Virus record (IMG/VR): IMGVR_UViG_3300046389_000466
Span: 1 to 26,578 of that record
Length of the DNA stretch: 26,578 nucleotides
Direction: 5' to 3' (one strand)
Source: a virus
This document shows, one piece after another, positions 13,213 through 26,400 of this stretch (its first letter is position 1; every line of letters begins with the position of its first letter). Both the position numbers and the translations under genes were made by a program. The notes below the pieces were generated by a model that was not told the DNA's origin, did not search any database, and saw only the letters and a list, made by a program, of their open reading frames with translations.

Positions 13213-13241
13213 ATAAATAACTATTAAATTTAATTTGTAAT

Positions 13242-13266
13242 GGGGGTCAATTTGACCCCCTTTTTT
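13242..13266 (+). terminator. Intrinsic terminator after nrdA
   Basis: GGGGGTC (13242-13248), loop AATTT, GACCCCC (13254-13260), followed by six T residues. The inverted repeat extends through the loop as a 9-bp palindrome arm. It is a strong Rho-independent terminator that closes the replication and nucleotide-metabolism unit and insulates the envelope cassette. Confidence 0.88.
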
Positions 13267-13277
13267 ATATTTATAAC
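13266..13277 (+). promoter_or_regulatory. Candidate AT-rich (late?) promoter box before the T9SS-substrate gene
   Basis: ATATTTATAA at 13267-13276, directly after the terminator T-run and 23 nt before the ATG. The same 10-mer precedes genes at 18243 and 19947. It lacks the TTTGG element found in the other promoter class. Its reverse complement contains TATAAATA, the T4 late promoter box, so orientation is ambiguous. In such AT-rich DNA chance occurrence is possible. Confidence 0.35.
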
Positions 13278-13299
13278 AAAATATAAAATTAAGAATAAC

Positions 13300-16200
13300 A
13301 TGAAAAAATTATTACTTTGGTTATGCTTTATGCTTCCTTTTTTGAACATAGCCCAAGAAACAGCACCCGTAACCTTTAGATTAGATGTTAATCAAATCAC
13401 CACTAATATTCCTAACCCAGATCAAATGCAAGTTTATATTCAAACTAGCGTTACTGGATGGACTGATATACCAATGGAAGATGTTGGGGGTAACGGAATT
13501 TACAGAAAAAATATTAATATAGGACACCCAACAGATGAAAATGTAGAGGTATTTTATAGGTTTAAGTTAACATCTTTTGGTAATAATGGGCTACCCTGGA
13601 CAGGATGGGAAGGAGGTTCTGATGCATCTGACTGTTTATTTGATGTAGCCACAGGAGGTGCTCCAGGAGGACCTAATAGTTTAAGAAAAGTAACAGTACC
13701 CGAAGAATTGATAGATAATGGTACTTACGTAAATCCTTCAGGAGAATATAAATTAACTCATTGCTTTAATGAGTGTGGTAATGAACCTTGCCCACCTGAA
13801 CCTTGTGTAGATGGTTTAACATCATCTAATGCTTATCAACAATGTGTAGAGAATACTCAAGCTTTAATAGTTTTTGAATGGGAGACAGAATGTACTCCTC
13901 AATCTGTCTTATACTCTAATGCAGAAGGAGCAGGGCCTTTTGAATATCAAGTTAATGAAGATGCAACAAACTTTGGAGTATATGCTGGAAACGGACAAAT
14001 GCCACCAAATTGGAGTGTAGAGCATCAATTAATAGTTAAATTTACAGATGGAAGTGAATCAGAACCTATTTTATACACCCCTACCCCTTGTATTGCAGGA
14101 TGTACAGATCCAAATTCTGATGCTTATAACCCATGGGCAACAGTAGATGATGGTTCTTGTTCTGGAACAAATTGTGACCCGGACACAGAACATCAAATAA
14201 CAATGCAGATTACATTAGATAATTGGCCAGGTGAAACTTCATGGACAATGAATAGTGGAGGTATTATAGGAGCAGTTACAGATGGAACATATAATTTTAA
14301 CGATATAGGAAAAACATTTACCTATAATTTCTGTATAGATAAAAATACAGGATTTGAATTTATTATTAATGATACTTATGGAGATGGTTTAGGTGGTACT
14401 ACATCTGGAGGAACTATAGACGGTAATGTTGTAATATACGATTGTAATGGAGATATTATTTGGGAATTACCTGAACCTGACTTTGGAGATGTAGCATACT
14501 CAGGACAACAATTTGGAGTTGATTGTGAAGGAACAGAAGAAATTTATGGATGTACAGATCCAGCTTATCAATCATATAATCCTGATGCTACTATAGATGA
14601 TGGTTCTTGTTCTGAACTTCATGTTGTAGGTTGTATGGATGAAGATTCAATTAACTACAATCCAGATGCTACTAAACAAGAATTAGTTCCAGTTTGTGAA
14701 TATAATTTAGTAGTAAGAGATGCAGCATCAGATGGATGGGGTAATTCTTTTATAGGAGTTGCTCAAGGAGGAGTTAGTTTAGGAACTTATACTTTAGGAC
14801 CTGGAATAGAAGAACAAGTCTGGCCTTTAACTTTAAACTCAGATGAAGAAGTAATAGTATATTATTTTGAAGTAGGTAATCCTCAAACAACACCAGAAGA
14901 ATTAAATTTCCAAACTTTACAAAATTCATTCCTCATAGTAGATTCAGATGAACAAGTATTACTAGACGGTGGTACTAACCCATTTGAAGATAATGGACAA
15001 GGAGCCTTACAAAATTTTGAAGCACCATTTTTTGAAAAATATTCAGCTTTACCATTTTGTGGTACAGTTTGTATTCCAATTGTAGAAGGGTGTATGACTG
15101 AAGGTTCATTAAACTATAATCCTGAAGCTAATGTAGATGATGGTTCTTGTATTCCTTATATAGAAGGTTGTATGAATCCATTAGCATTTAACTACAACCC
15201 AGATGCCACAGTAGATGATGGTTCTTGTATTGAAGTAATTGTAGGTTGTATGGACCCAGATTCATTTAACTATAACCCAGAAGCTAACACCCCAGGTGAT
15301 TGTATTCCAGTTATAGAAGGTTGTATGGATCCAACATCATTTAATTATAATGAAAATGCAAATGTAGATGATGGTTCATGTATCCCTGTAATAGAAGGAT
15401 GTATGGATGTAAATTCAATTAATTATAATCCTGATGCTAATACTGATGATGGAAGTTGTATTCCAATTGTAGAAGGTTGTACAGATCCAGATTCATTTAA
15501 TTATAATCCAGATGCTAACGTAGATGATGGAAGTTGTATTCCTGTAATATATGGTTGTACAGACCCAGATGCATTTAATTATAATCCAGATGCTAACACA
15601 GATAATGGAACTTGTGAACCAGTAGTATTTGGTTGTACTGATCCTGATTCTTTCAATTATAACCCAGATGCAAATACAGATAATGGTACTTGTATCCCTG
15701 TAATACTTGGTTGTACTGACAACACAGCATTTAACTATAACCCAGATGCTAATACTGACGATGGTAGTTGTATACCAATTTTAGCTGGTTGTACAGATCC
15801 AACATCATTTAACTACAACCCCTTAGCAAATACTGATGATGGTAGTTGTATACCTATAATAGAAGGATGTACTGACCCTAGTGCTTTAAATTACAACCCA
15901 GATGCTAATACAGAAGATTTTAGCTGTGTAGAAATAGTTTATGGTTGTATGGATCCAACATCAGTAAATTACAACCCAGAAGCAAACGTTGATAATGGTA
16001 GCTGTATAACAGCAGTAGTAGGATGTACAGATCCAGAATCATATAACTATAATCCTGAAGCTAACGTTTCAGACCCAGATGCTTGTTTATATGATGCAGG
16101 CTGTATAGATGGTCCTGGTAATCCATATTGGTTAAATGATAATTGCTATGCTTGGGTAATTGATGTGGATCAATATTGTTGTGATAACGAATTTGATTCT

Positions 16201-16506
16201 ATATGTCAGGATATGTATAATTATTGTGAAGATGGATGGCCTGATGGATTTGATTTAAATTCAATTCAATCTCAATTTTCTAGAATTAATAATATAATTG
16301 TGCATCCAAATCCAACATCTGGAATAATAAACGTATCTTCTAATATAGAAGGTGTAACATTTGAAGTAAGGGATTTATTAGGTAAAATAATTGTACCTGA
16401 GTCTAGTGGTAATACAATTGATCTATCAAAATCAGCTGCTGGAATATATGTCTTAACAATTAAGAATGGAACACAAACATATAATAAAAAAATAATTAAA
16501 GAATAA
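13300..16506 (+). CDS. Secreted Cys/Asp-rich repeat protein with T9SS C-terminal sorting domain
   Basis: 1068-residue exported protein, strikingly host-like for a phage. Residues 1-19 are a signal peptide (MKKLL..., cleavage near IAQ). Residues about 20-165 resemble a carbohydrate-binding-module-like beta domain (VTFRLDV, GWTDIPMEDVGGNGIYRK). About 290-410 and 466-590 are two beta domains, the first with DTYGDGLGG. Repeats of GC(T/M)DP..xNYNPxAxxDDGSC type occur singly at 266, 416 and 443 and then as 13 tandem copies at 596-930. A CC...SICQ...C cysteine segment follows. Residues about 995-1068 match type A T9SS sorting domains: VHPNPTSG, FEVRDLLGK, IDLSKSAAGIYVLTI and a basic C-terminus. Predicted route: Sec, periplasm, T9SS, cell surface. 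I chose ATG 13300 because it begins the signal peptide; an upstream in-frame ATG at 13240 lies within the terminator. A surface adhesin or cell-surface-altering role is inference. Confidence 0.85.
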   Translation: MKKLLLWLCFMLPFLNIAQETAPVTFRLDVNQITTNIPNPDQMQVYIQTSVTGWTDIPMEDVGGNGIYRKNINIGHPTDENVEVFYRFKLTSFGNNGLPWTGWEGGSDASDCLFDVATGGAPGGPNSLRKVTVPEELIDNGTYVNPSGEYKLTHCFNECGNEPCPPEPCVDGLTSSNAYQQCVENTQALIVFEWETECTPQSVLYSNAEGAGPFEYQVNEDATNFGVYAGNGQMPPNWSVEHQLIVKFTDGSESEPILYTPTPCIAGCTDPNSDAYNPWATVDDGSCSGTNCDPDTEHQITMQITLDNWPGETSWTMNSGGIIGAVTDGTYNFNDIGKTFTYNFCIDKNTGFEFIINDTYGDGLGGTTSGGTIDGNVVIYDCNGDIIWELPEPDFGDVAYSGQQFGVDCEGTEEIYGCTDPAYQSYNPDATIDDGSCSELHVVGCMDEDSINYNPDATKQELVPVCEYNLVVRDAASDGWGNSFIGVAQGGVSLGTYTLGPGIEEQVWPLTLNSDEEVIVYYFEVGNPQTTPEELNFQTLQNSFLIVDSDEQVLLDGGTNPFEDNGQGALQNFEAPFFEKYSALPFCGTVCIPIVEGCMTEGSLNYNPEANVDDGSCIPYIEGCMNPLAFNYNPDATVDDGSCIEVIVGCMDPDSFNYNPEANTPGDCIPVIEGCMDPTSFNYNENANVDDGSCIPVIEGCMDVNSINYNPDANTDDGSCIPIVEGCTDPDSFNYNPDANVDDGSCIPVIYGCTDPDAFNYNPDANTDNGTCEPVVFGCTDPDSFNYNPDANTDNGTCIPVILGCTDNTAFNYNPDANTDDGSCIPILAGCTDPTSFNYNPLANTDDGSCIPIIEGCTDPSALNYNPDANTEDFSCVEIVYGCMDPTSVNYNPEANVDNGSCITAVVGCTDPESYNYNPEANVSDPDACLYDAGCIDGPGNPYWLNDNCYAWVIDVDQYCCDNEFDSICQDMYNYCEDGWPDGFDLNSIQSQFSRINNIIVHPNPTSGIINVSSNIEGVTFEVRDLLGKIIVPESSGNTIDLSKSAAGIYVLTIKNGTQTYNKKIIKE
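15085..16089 (+). repeat. Tandem array of 13 repeats of about 26 codons within the T9SS-substrate gene
   Basis: Thirteen consecutive units of about 78 nt, each coding (E/V/Y)GC(T/M)DPxSxNYNPxANxDDGSCIPVI-like residues with two cysteines and an Asp-rich acidic loop. Copies differ at many synonymous positions, so the array is diverged rather than recently expanded. One unit is a codon shorter and has TPGD in place of the VDDGS loop. The loops may bind calcium and the cysteines may pair within each unit. Confidence 0.9.
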
Positions 16507-22709: not shown

Positions 22710-23507
22710 ATGAAAGTATCACACGAAGTACCTAGATGTTTACTAAAAGCATCACAAGAATTTAATGATTATGATTATTGCTTACCTCATCTATTAGATC
22801 AAGATGAAGAATATAAACAATATTTTTATAATGCTAAAGAAGAAGGACGTTATGTTATCATGGATAATTCACTTCATGAATTAGGAGAAGCATATGATTA
22901 TGATAGATTAAGATATTGGGTCAATGAATTAGAACCAAATGAATTTATTGTACCAGATGTTTGGATGAATTGTTCTCAAACAGCGGCACAAGCTAAATAT
23001 TGGAAACAATTTAAATATCCTAAAAAAACTAAACTCACAGCTGTAATTCAGGGTGAAGATAAGAATCAAGCTTATCTATGTGCTACTTTATTAGCAAATT
23101 TAGGATATAAAAAATTATGTGTATCTTATGGTGCTACTTGGTATAATGATTTTTTCCCACATACTAACGCAGATATGGGAAAAGCATTAGGTAGAGTACG
23201 ATTTGTACAAGGTTTATTTAAGATAAAACATTTAAAAGATATTAAATTTCATTTATTAGGTTGTTCAATTCCACAAGAATTTGGTTGGTATGATGATGGT
23301 TTTTCATCAAGAATTGAATCAATTGATACTTCTAATCCAGTAATGGCAGCTTTAGATGGAACTAAATATAATAGTAATGGAATGAATTATAAACCAAATG
23401 CTAATATGAATGATTTTTTTGATGTTAAATTTGAAGATATTAAATACGAAGATATTATTTACAACACAACACAATTTAGAAGAATTAATAATTTAAAAAT
23501 CAAATAA
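22710..23507 (+). CDS. dpdA: DpdA-like / tRNA-guanine-transglycosylase-family enzyme
   Basis: 265-residue protein with the layout of the TGT/DpdA superfamily, whose DpdA members exchange guanine in DNA for preQ0. Visible landmarks: YVIMDNSLHELG with Asp52 (the general-acid position in TGT strand/loop), FIVPDVWMNCSQT with Asp83 (compare ALDE/PD in TGT), KKLCVSYG near the base-binding loop, LGCSIPQEFGWYDD, and RIESIDTSNPVMAAL with Asp206 at the position of the TGT nucleophile in its FDC-x-P segment. The CxCxxC...H zinc site of queuine TGT is absent and the protein is about 100 residues shorter than bacterial TGT, as in compact phage relatives. It is followed within 400 nt by queC, queD and queE, which make preQ0. 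Family call is by motif and context; the substrate (DNA rather than tRNA) is inference. Confidence 0.75.
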   Translation: MKVSHEVPRCLLKASQEFNDYDYCLPHLLDQDEEYKQYFYNAKEEGRYVIMDNSLHELGEAYDYDRLRYWVNELEPNEFIVPDVWMNCSQTAAQAKYWKQFKYPKKTKLTAVIQGEDKNQAYLCATLLANLGYKKLCVSYGATWYNDFFPHTNADMGKALGRVRFVQGLFKIKHLKDIKFHLLGCSIPQEFGWYDDGFSSRIESIDTSNPVMAALDGTKYNSNGMNYKPNANMNDFFDVKFEDIKYEDIIYNTTQFRRINNLKIK

Positions 23508-23897: not shown

Positions 23898-24686
23898 ATG
23901 GCACATTGTGTAGTAAGTTTAAGTGGTGGAATGGATAGTAGCACCCTATTGTTAAGAGCTATCGAGAAATATGATACTGTAACAGGTATCTCATTTGACT
24001 ATGGTCAAAAACACAGAGTAGAGCTAGAGAGAGCTCAATCATTAATTGATTACCTTGCAAGTAAAGGTCACAAAGTAAATTATCGTCAAATCAAATTAGA
24101 TGGATTAGTAGATCTACTAGACTCAGCTTTGGTTACAGGTGGAGATGATGTACCAGAAGGACATTATGAGCAAGATAATATGAAAGAAACAGTTGTTCCT
24201 AACAGAAATAAAATGTTTGCTTCTATTACTCAAGCAGTTGCATTATCTGTAGCAAATAGAACAGAAGATGTTTGTGATATTGCTTTAGGTATTCATGCTG
24301 GTGATCATGCAGTTTATCCTGATTGTAGACAAGAATTTAGAGATGCAGATGATGCAGCTTTTAGAATTGGAAACTGGGATGCAGATAGAGTAGGTTACTT
24401 TACACCTTATTTAGATACTGATAAATTTGGTATTCTACAAGATGGAGAAAAATTATGTGAAATTTTAGGTATTGATTTTGATGAAGTTTATAAAAGAACA
24501 AATACTTCTTATAAGCCTTATCCTTCGGGAAATAGTGATTATAAGTCTGCTTCTAGTGTTGAGAGGATTGAGGCTTTTATTGCTCTTGGCAGAAAAGATC
24601 CCGTACAGTATGAGGATGAAACTGGAGAAGTTGATTACGAAGTAGCAGAAACCCATGTAAAACAAGTATTAGCTGAATATGAATAA
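23898..24686 (+). CDS. queC: 7-cyano-7-deazaguanine (preQ0) synthase QueC, zinc-cysteine site missing
   Basis: 262-residue PP-loop enzyme that converts carboxydeazaguanine to preQ0 with ATP and ammonia. The ATP-binding loop SLSGGMDSST (residues 7-16), FDYGQKHRVE, VPNRNKMFASI and GIHAGDHAVYPDCRQEF are typical QueC motifs. In bacterial QueC a C-terminal TLTCY...CGxCxxC segment binds zinc. Here the corresponding stretch reads TNTSY (Ser204) then SGNSDYKSASSVER (210-223), so all four cysteines are replaced, while the flanking TSY and ERIEAF...GRKDPV are kept. Either zinc is not needed in this lineage or the activity has changed. It overlaps a tiny membrane-protein gene by 8 nt. It is probably expressed with thioredoxin, queD and queE. 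The family call is secure. Confidence 0.92.
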   Translation: MAHCVVSLSGGMDSSTLLLRAIEKYDTVTGISFDYGQKHRVELERAQSLIDYLASKGHKVNYRQIKLDGLVDLLDSALVTGGDDVPEGHYEQDNMKETVVPNRNKMFASITQAVALSVANRTEDVCDIALGIHAGDHAVYPDCRQEFRDADDAAFRIGNWDADRVGYFTPYLDTDKFGILQDGEKLCEILGIDFDEVYKRTNTSYKPYPSGNSDYKSASSVERIEAFIALGRKDPVQYEDETGEVDYEVAETHVKQVLAEYE

Positions 24687-24866: not shown

Positions 24867-25115
24867 ATGAAAAAAATAATTTATTTTAGTGCTCCTTGGT
24901 GTGGTCCTTGTAAAGTTTTAGGACCAACTATAGAAAGATTAACTGGTGAGTTACCTATTACAAAAGTTAATGTAGATGAAGATAATACTATTTCTGCTAA
25001 ATATGGAATTAGAAACATTCCTACATTGGTTTTAATAGATCAAAATGGTAAAGAAATTAATAGAATAGTAGGAAACATTTCAGAACAACAAATAAAACAA
25101 TTTTATAATGGGTAA
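24867..25115 (+). CDS. trx: Thioredoxin
   Basis: 82-residue minimal thioredoxin with the classical active site APWCGPCK (Cys12, Cys15), the cis-proline loop IPTLVL and the C-terminal GNISEQQ segment. At 82 residues it is shorter than E. coli thioredoxin (about 108) and close to glutaredoxin-like phage thioredoxins, with the first strand and helix trimmed. No signal peptide, so it is cytoplasmic. It could reduce the NrdA C-terminal disulfide (Cys566/Cys569) during ribonucleotide reduction, which is the usual job of phage thioredoxins; its location between queC and queD leaves open a role for redox-sensitive deazaguanine enzymes. Its stop overlaps the queD start by 8 nt. Confidence 0.9.
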   Translation: MKKIIYFSAPWCGPCKVLGPTIERLTGELPITKVNVDEDNTISAKYGIRNIPTLVLIDQNGKEINRIVGNISEQQIKQFYNG

Positions 25116-25572
25116 ATTTCAATCAAGTAAAGTATTTGACGGGTTTAGTACAGTGTTTCGTCAATGGAAAGCTACAACAACACACTGTAGGTTTGTACAT
25201 GGTTATGGAATTTCATTTAAAGTATATTTTGAAGGCGATTTAGACGAAAGAAATTGGGTTTGGGACTTTGGAGGTATGAAAAGAGCTAAAACTAAAATAG
25301 ATGGTAAGTCTCCTAAAGAATGGATGGATTATATGTTTGATCATACTTTAATTGTTGCTGAAGATGACCCATTTTTAGAAGCATTTAAGCAAATGGAAGA
25401 ATCAGAAGTAGCTCAAGTTAGAGTAATCCCAGCTACTGGTGCAGAAAAATTTGCTGAATATATTTATACTAAATTAAATAGTTTTGTTCAAACTGAAACT
25501 GAAGGTAGAGTAAGAGTTACTAAAGTTAAGTTTGCGGAACATGGAAAAAATGCTGCTTATTACAGCGAGTAA
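25108..25572 (+). CDS. queD: 6-carboxytetrahydropterin synthase QueD-like
   Basis: 154-residue member of the QueD/PTPS family, which turns dihydroneopterin triphosphate into carboxytetrahydropterin, the second step of preQ0 synthesis after FolE. Motifs: FSTVFRQWKA, THCRFVHGYG with Cys27 at the catalytic-cysteine position and His31, WDFGGMKR (Asp53), FDHTLIV (Asp78, His79), VIPATGAEKFAEYI (Glu113) and KFAEHG (Glu144). The canonical HGH zinc pair is HGY here, and no His occurs at the usual first-ligand position; the VFRQW...HC..VHGY form looks like a distinct QueD subfamily. It overlaps thioredoxin upstream and precedes queE by 9 nt. No folE is visible, so GTP cyclohydrolase must come from elsewhere in the phage or from the host. 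Confidence 0.87.
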   Translation: MGKFQSSKVFDGFSTVFRQWKATTTHCRFVHGYGISFKVYFEGDLDERNWVWDFGGMKRAKTKIDGKSPKEWMDYMFDHTLIVAEDDPFLEAFKQMEESEVAQVRVIPATGAEKFAEYIYTKLNSFVQTETEGRVRVTKVKFAEHGKNAAYYSE

Positions 25573-25581
25573 GTTATAATA

Positions 25582-26400
25582 GTGAATGAAAAACCACTTA
25601 AAAAAATTAACAATATGCACAAACAATTGAAACGTATTGAGGATTACGATAAAAATCTTCCGATTGTAGAAGTTTATACTGCAGTCCAATCTGAAGGCTC
25701 TAGAGCAGGATACCCCACAGTAGTAATTAGAACAACAGGATGCACTCACAGATGTTATTTCGGTGAAGGTGGTTGGTGTGATAGTTGGTATACAAGTATC
25801 CACCCAGAAAAAGGCCAATTTAATTTTAATAATATTATACAAAAGTATAAAGATAATCCTCATATTAAAGAGATGATGCTTACTGGTGGTTCACCTACTA
25901 TGCATCCCGCTTTAGTAAATGAGTTAACCCATTTTGCACATGAAAATGATATATTCATTACTATCGAAACTGAAGGATCTCATTTCCTCCCCACTGATTA
26001 TCCTATTAATCTTTTGTCAATTTCTCCTAAGTTTAGTAATAGCGTTCCCGTTGTTGGTGTTGCTACTCCTCAAGGAGGAATTACAGACGAAAGGATGGTT
26101 AAAAAACATAATTCGAAAAGGTTGAATTATGAAGCAATGAAACAATCAATTGCTTACCACTCAGACTATCATATTAAACCAGTATGGGATGGTAAAGATG
26201 AAGATGCGTTAGCTGAAATTATGGATTGTTTAGAAAAACTTGAAGTATCCCAAGATAAAGTTTGGTTTATGCCCGCAGGTGATTCAAGAGAAGCATTATT
26301 TAAATCATACCCCATATTATTTGATTGGGTAAGAGATAATGGTTACAGAATGACTTGGAGACCCCACATTATAGCATTTGAAGATCAAAGAGAAGTATAA
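25582..26400 (+). CDS. queE: 7-carboxy-7-deazaguanine synthase QueE (radical SAM) with extended cysteine loop
   Basis: 272-residue radical-SAM enzyme that contracts carboxytetrahydropterin to carboxydeazaguanine. The N-terminal IVEVYTAVQSEGSRAGYPTVVIR is typical QueE. The iron-sulfur cysteines are Cys54, Cys58 and Cys66 in TTGCTHRCYFGEGGWCDSWYT, a C-x3-C-x7-C spacing, whereas standard QueE and most radical-SAM enzymes have C-x3-C-x2-C; five extra residues lie between the second and third cysteines. Then MMLTGGSPTMHP (the GGEP-like SAM motif as GGSP), ITIETEGS, LLSISPKFSNS and KPVWDGKDEDA follow. ATG 25582 is used; ATG 25615 would also retain the whole core. The stop overlaps the next start by 1 nt. 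Family call is strong. Confidence 0.9.
   Translation: MNEKPLKKINNMHKQLKRIEDYDKNLPIVEVYTAVQSEGSRAGYPTVVIRTTGCTHRCYFGEGGWCDSWYTSIHPEKGQFNFNNIIQKYKDNPHIKEMMLTGGSPTMHPALVNELTHFAHENDIFITIETEGSHFLPTDYPINLLSISPKFSNSVPVVGVATPQGGITDERMVKKHNSKRLNYEAMKQSIAYHSDYHIKPVWDGKDEDALAEIMDCLEKLEVSQDKVWFMPAGDSREALFKSYPILFDWVRDNGYRMTWRPHIIAFEDQREV

Follow-up and report, generated by a model that had tools for sequence, protein, structure and literature searches.

The C-x3-C-x2-C motif is commonly used to recognise radical-SAM enzymes, and it is the spacing found in canonical QueE proteins such as those of B. subtilis (5tgs/5th5) and E. coli (6nhl). Radical-SAM spacing variants are known, including the QueE of B. 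multivorans, which has one extended loop and reads CX14CX2C (PMC4389238). In a limited literature search, we found no description of QueE variants that differ in the spacing from the second to the third cluster cysteine (Cys2-Cys3). Modified DNA has been reported for several viruses: HVTV-1 DNA carries dPreQ1 at ~30% of G, nt-1 DNA has traces of dPreQ0, dADG and dG+, and Rosebush DNA has 28% dPreQ0, its M. smegmatis host being without the pathway (PMC6884629).

Here we describe a viral QueE with a lengthened Cys2-Cys3 interval. It is 82% identical to the QueE of Flavobacterium phage immuto and 72% identical to those of the Cellulophaga phages phiST, phi13:1 and phi19:2; the motif CTHRC[YWF]FGEGGWC is found in immuto and phi13:1, as in the protein studied here.

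A QueE with five extra residues in the cluster motif

The window, by which we mean the whole 26,578-nucleotide stretch of DNA analysed (IMG/VR record IMGVR_UViG_3300046389_000466), belongs to a phage of marine, flavobacterial type and carries genes for QueC, QueD, QueE and DpdA (Table 1). The QueE translation, which contains TGCTHRCYFGEGGWCDSWY, begins at a GTG, but could also start from the internal ATG at 25615; many relatives align only from approximately residue 13. The protein is similar to QueE over the radical-SAM core but does not have the canonical C-x3-C-x2-C motif, carrying instead that motif plus five residues. The first-pass annotation had read Cys54, Cys58 and Cys66 as C-x3-C-x7-C, with YFGEG inserted between cluster cysteines; its coordinates and spacing proved exact in the translation, and alignment confirmed the position of the insertion. 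A fourth cysteine of the window QueE, C216, is not conserved, and C54, C58 and C66 are the sole invariant cysteines of the clade in a 42-sequence alignment (A2).

Table 1. Features of the queE region of the window
Feature	Coordinates	Strand	Remarks
dpdA-like DNA guanine transglycosylase	22710..23507	+	34% to immuto DpdA; AlphaFold2 and Foldseek
queC	23898..24686	+	SGGxDS, YxQxHxxE, VPxRN, YPDC and motif tyrosine kept; all four zinc cysteines replaced
TNTSYKP...SDYKSASSVER replacing QueC zinc motif	24498..24566	+	sequence there, TNTSYKPYPSGNSDYKSASSVER
thioredoxin-like gene	24867..25115	+	between queC and queD; conserved neighbour in many related loci
queD (6-carboxytetrahydropterin synthase-like), FRQW/HGY type	25108..25572	+	Phe17 and Tyr33 at two of three zinc-His positions
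queE, 7-carboxy-7-deazaguanine synthase homologue	25582..26400	+	272 aa from GTG; profile matches, AlphaFold2 model
radical-SAM cluster motif C-x3-C-x7-C (C54, C58, C66)	25741..25779	+	translation; residues 54-66, CTHRCYFGEGGWC
YFGEG insertion, Cys2-Cys3 interval of cluster motif	25756..25770	+	alignment

The x7 loop is conserved among related phages

A scan of viral contigs (IMG/VR) with six peptides from outside the motif returned 376 relatives, and all of the best 80 that we read had the x7 spacing, at 83-96% identity, as YFGEGGWC (76) or FFGEGGWC (4). A further scan, which used a degenerate pattern for the motif, gave at least 113 readable cases, with identities as low as 46%, and among the matches listed all of these read CTHRC[YWF]FG[EADS]GGWC; this set was preselected for the spacing, whereas T, H, R and the second G of GGW were left open. 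We also compared 139 nucleotide versions of the motif, all distinct and partly chosen by a pattern that fixed F, G, G and W and left those same four positions free, and found THRC, G50, G52, G53, W54 and C55 (A2 numbering) to be fixed; the third codon positions of these residues vary freely, and changes at key residues were synonymous only. The motif spacing was likewise invariant in A2 except for one x8 form. At the level of sequence, the YFGEG loop is under purifying selection, and the five-residue extension is fixed across hundreds of related phages.

That the x7 motif might be a sequencing or assembly error, or a chance reading, is an explanation to which we give practically no weight. The identical motif is present in the independent isolates immuto and phi13:1 and in 80/80 environmental contigs; we found nothing in favour of this explanation and ruled it out on the x7 spacing of 80/80 relatives and the synonymous-only variation at key residues. 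A host-derived gene was also rejected: among 84,980 species genomes scanned, relatives turned up in nine cases, all in metagenome-assembled genomes and likely phage contigs, and the 54 QueE parsed from Bacteroidota and Pseudomonadota all had the x2 spacing.

Rare loop variants were seen as GEVGGWC (x8, contig L212) and FNSGGWC (L346). The contig that encodes the x8 QueE (CYFGEVGGWC; L212:8001-8765) comes from a metagenome-assembled genome of Thiobius.

Fold and active site

In profile searches of NCBIfam, PHROGs and PDB, QueE was the first match in each case, with E 3e-53 for phrog_2076 (QueE-like), and the PDB search returned QueE only. All five NCBIfam QueE models matched, in 42/42 clade members, far below every equivalog cut-off (57.6 bits against 206 for TIGR03365). 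Because these cut-offs were made for particular cellular subfamilies, missing them bars the curated equivalog label but not membership of the wider QueE family.

An AlphaFold2 model computed from 42 window and viral sequences (pLDDT 91.8, pTM 0.89) had the QueE structures 5th5/5tgs/6nhl/4njg as its top Foldseek matches, the best solved matches being the enzymes of B. subtilis (TM 0.74 on target), E. coli and B. multivorans. Structure prediction, which the first-pass annotation had proposed for the cluster loop, thus recovered the QueE fold, with the loop itself the lowest-confidence part (blocks near 77-79 pLDDT) of a model that is without the cluster.

In an alignment of 46 diverse QueE proteins, the three cluster cysteines, E38, R50, D67, GG102-103, P105, E129 and K150 were invariant. 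Residues that we take, from general knowledge of QueE structures, to form the substrate and metal sites were also present (Q-x-E, Arg, the Asp after Cys3, GG-x-P, E-T, S-P-K and a C-terminal His). The canonical enzymes of B. subtilis and E. coli resemble the window QueE in fold and active-site residues, but share ~20% identity with it and differ from it in cluster spacing. The window QueE reads QSEG for QGEG and GGSP for GGEP; at the latter position, the B. subtilis enzyme has GGNP.

Cluster spacing across QueE proteins

The first-pass annotation had treated the x7 spacing as a departure from the QueE norm. With respect to bacterial chromosomes this is correct, as the Cys2-Cys3 interval was x2 in 54/54 parsed chromosomal QueE of Bacteroidota and Pseudomonadota (five further loci were unparsed, and archaea lay outside the sample); with respect to viruses the insertion is not unique, as x7 is fixed in hundreds of phages and other lengths occur elsewhere. 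Phages 9g, JG054, Iggy, Dp-1, Youna2, BSTP12, StAshley, CRB2, Rinkes, Bananafish and MA9V-3 have x2 QueE. Longer intervals were x6 (phi3ST:2, phiSM), x7 (the window clade), x17 (CP220), x22-23 (haloviruses, with x22 in HVTV-1/HCTV-5), ~x27 (PhiXhv-16), x34 (GR11A), x35 (an environmental group), x38 (contigs L304 and L349) and x40 (nt-1, Ahp1).

In a tree computed after removal of the insertion, the inserted forms made up one viral branch together with Mycobacterium phages and MA9V-3 (support 99/97; SH-aLRT 88 with 57 bacterial sequences added), and the presence or absence of an insertion requires two to three changes on the QueE trees. These trees place the window QueE in a virus-only branch among the sequences sampled. 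The QueE proteins of HVTV-1/HCTV-5, nt-1, CP220 and phiSM/phi3ST:2 belong to the same branch and carry their insertions at the same place, but these differ from YFGEG in length and sequence. With inserted forms of many lengths in one viral branch, the x7 spacing of the window is thus one example of a pattern found more widely in viruses. The B. multivorans-type QueE (TIGR04508) provides a precedent for a lengthened cluster loop, but its additional residues separate Cys1 from Cys2 rather than Cys2 from Cys3.

The modified DNA of HVTV-1 (x22) and nt-1 (x40) is no more than suggestive of a working inserted QueE: the hosts of both probably make preQ0 themselves, so modified DNA there is no proof that QueE works. 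Bananafish, annotated to the same genus as Rosebush (Rosebushvirus), has an x2 QueE, yet falls inside the same viral branch.

The queE neighbourhood

Among 208 related loci, many of them fragmentary, QueD was found in 184, FolE in 155, the thioredoxin-like gene in 145, QueC in 123 and DpdA in 109; QueC, QueD, QueE, DpdA and FolE co-occur in dozens, with 60 in the commonest set alone. FolE is not in the 26.6 kb window fragment; in the clade, it retains the zinc ligands MCSHHH and HACVSC (by eye, in a few sequences). The AlphaFold2 model of the DpdA-like protein (pLDDT 95.4) had tRNA-guanine transglycosylase 5egr and DpdA 7ui4 as its top Foldseek matches. The DpdA, QueC and QueD genes of the window point to a 7-deazaguanine in the phage DNA. 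In the window genes that we examined, we identified neither QueF nor an amidotransferase, and our guess is therefore that the base would be dPreQ0 or a derivative.

In immuto and the Cellulophaga phages, the same QueD type adjoins queE, and DpdA-like and FolE genes are near. Gene order and extra genes differ, with QueF and a formyltransferase-like gene in immuto and no annotated QueC in the stretch of phi13:1 that we read. The two immuto genes lie near DpdA (L082:13373-15349) and are both shared by related loci; they might yield a formylated preQ1 base.

Altered QueC and QueD sites, also reported in the first-pass annotation, were borne out: all four cysteines of the canonical QueC zinc motif C(x)8CxxCxxC and two of the three QueD zinc histidines are lost. 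Zinc cysteines were absent in 123/123 clade loci that have QueC, and the other QueC motifs in Table 1, including the essential tyrosine, follow published definitions (PMC13329287). The window QueD retains Cys27, His31 and an FDH motif; clade QueD is of the FRQ/HGY type in nearly all readable cases, with some IRQ/LRQ. The absence of two zinc ligands from QueD makes the step upstream of QueE uncertain. Cys-less QueC of the window type is widespread in environmental viruses, and Iggy and R5C carry another Cys-less form. Relatives of the window QueD occur in ~100 phage records from many hosts, with the FRQ/HGY type read in some only.

These traits are not tied to one another. With an HGY-type QueD, StAshley combines a QueC that has its zinc cysteines and an x2 QueE, phi3ST:2 a canonical QueC with cysteines and an x6 QueE, Iggy a Cys-less QueC and an x2 QueE, and R5C a Cys-less QueC; in a profile search, many environmental loci with the window-type Cys-less QueC had an x35 QueE. 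The separation of the traits in StAshley, Iggy, phi3ST:2 and the x35 loci indicates a mosaic of phage-type variants rather than one coherent pathway.

Discussion

We consider it highly probable that the window QueE is the phage's own active radical-SAM 7-carboxy-7-deazaguanine (CDG) synthase, with a canonical-like site, and that it feeds DpdA-mediated modification of the phage DNA. In such an enzyme, C54, C58 and C66 would coordinate the three non-unique irons of a single [4Fe-4S] cluster, the fourth being bound by SAM. YFGEG would loop out between Cys58 and GGWC, and GGWC would restore the usual aromatic-Cys-Asp geometry, so that the site would work like that of canonical QueE. CDG would pass from QueE to QueC, and the DpdA-like transglycosylase would put the product into phage DNA, which would protect it from restriction. 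The fold, the purifying selection and the conservation of chemistry residues all speak for CDG synthase activity. The lengthened loop most likely represents a functional variant rather than new chemistry, because the extension is fixed in hundreds of phages and is one of many viral loop lengths. We see no evidence of new chemistry in the window QueE, whose variant spacing is real and conserved and which is most likely functional.

A QueE-like protein that has no CDG synthase activity, because it uses another substrate, moonlights or is dead, would fit the scores below all QueE equivalog cut-offs and the QSEG and GGSP readings. We hold this to be very unlikely, as the cluster and core residues are invariant, purifying selection is strong and QueD, FolE, QueC and DpdA are constant company; GGNP at the GGSP position in the solved B. 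subtilis enzyme further weakens the case from that substitution. Somewhat less improbable, though still unlikely, is that the insertion does more than loop out passively and serves in regulation or in docking a partner, for example the thioredoxin-like protein of the phage or a flavodoxin/ferredoxin of the host. The loop is nearly invariant in the clade (FG-x-GGW), more strictly than a neutral spacer requires, and the thioredoxin-like gene is near in 145/208 loci; against this, the loops that other viral lineages carry at this position, 6 to 40 residues long, are unrelated.

The first-pass annotation had further suggested that the pathway forms a coherent, divergent branch. Its altered sites and a virus-only QueE branch stand, but the QueE, QueC and QueD traits are unlinked across phages. 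Joint alteration of the three proteins, for a different product or for other metals, would account for the co-occurrence in the clade of x7 QueE, Cys-less QueC (all 123) and FRQ/HGY-type QueD. It is nonetheless improbable in our judgement: each trait occurs without the others in StAshley, Iggy, MA9V-3, phi3ST:2 and the x35 viruses, the QueC catalytic motifs are kept in the window copy, and FolE keeps its zinc ligands. The FolE ligands, as read by eye, also indicate that zinc has not been lost throughout, and we rejected a general zinc-free pathway on this ground. A broader proposal, in which viral QueE would be a separate lineage with an insertion hot spot between Cys2 and Cys3 (2 to 40 residues), and the marine-clade insertion and the loss of QueD and QueC zinc ligands would mark a pathway adapted to other metals or to a reductant of its own, we regard as speculative and unlikely. 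The reading that we prefer remains an active CDG synthase with a lengthened loop.

Motif searches based on C-x3-C-x2-C would miss these viral QueE proteins. Their range of spacings is a measure of what the cluster loop can tolerate, and the natural series x2, x6, x7, x8, x17, x22, x35 and x40 could be used to probe what the loop controls. The clade also adds to the marine phages that probably modify their DNA; it is common in viral metagenomes, and its members score under the cut-offs by which QueE is currently annotated.

Elsewhere in the window (13240-16506), a 1088-residue protein has many GC(T/M)DP..NYNPDAN.DDGSC repeats and a C-terminus that resembles a Bacteroidota type IX secretion sorting domain, both as read by eye.
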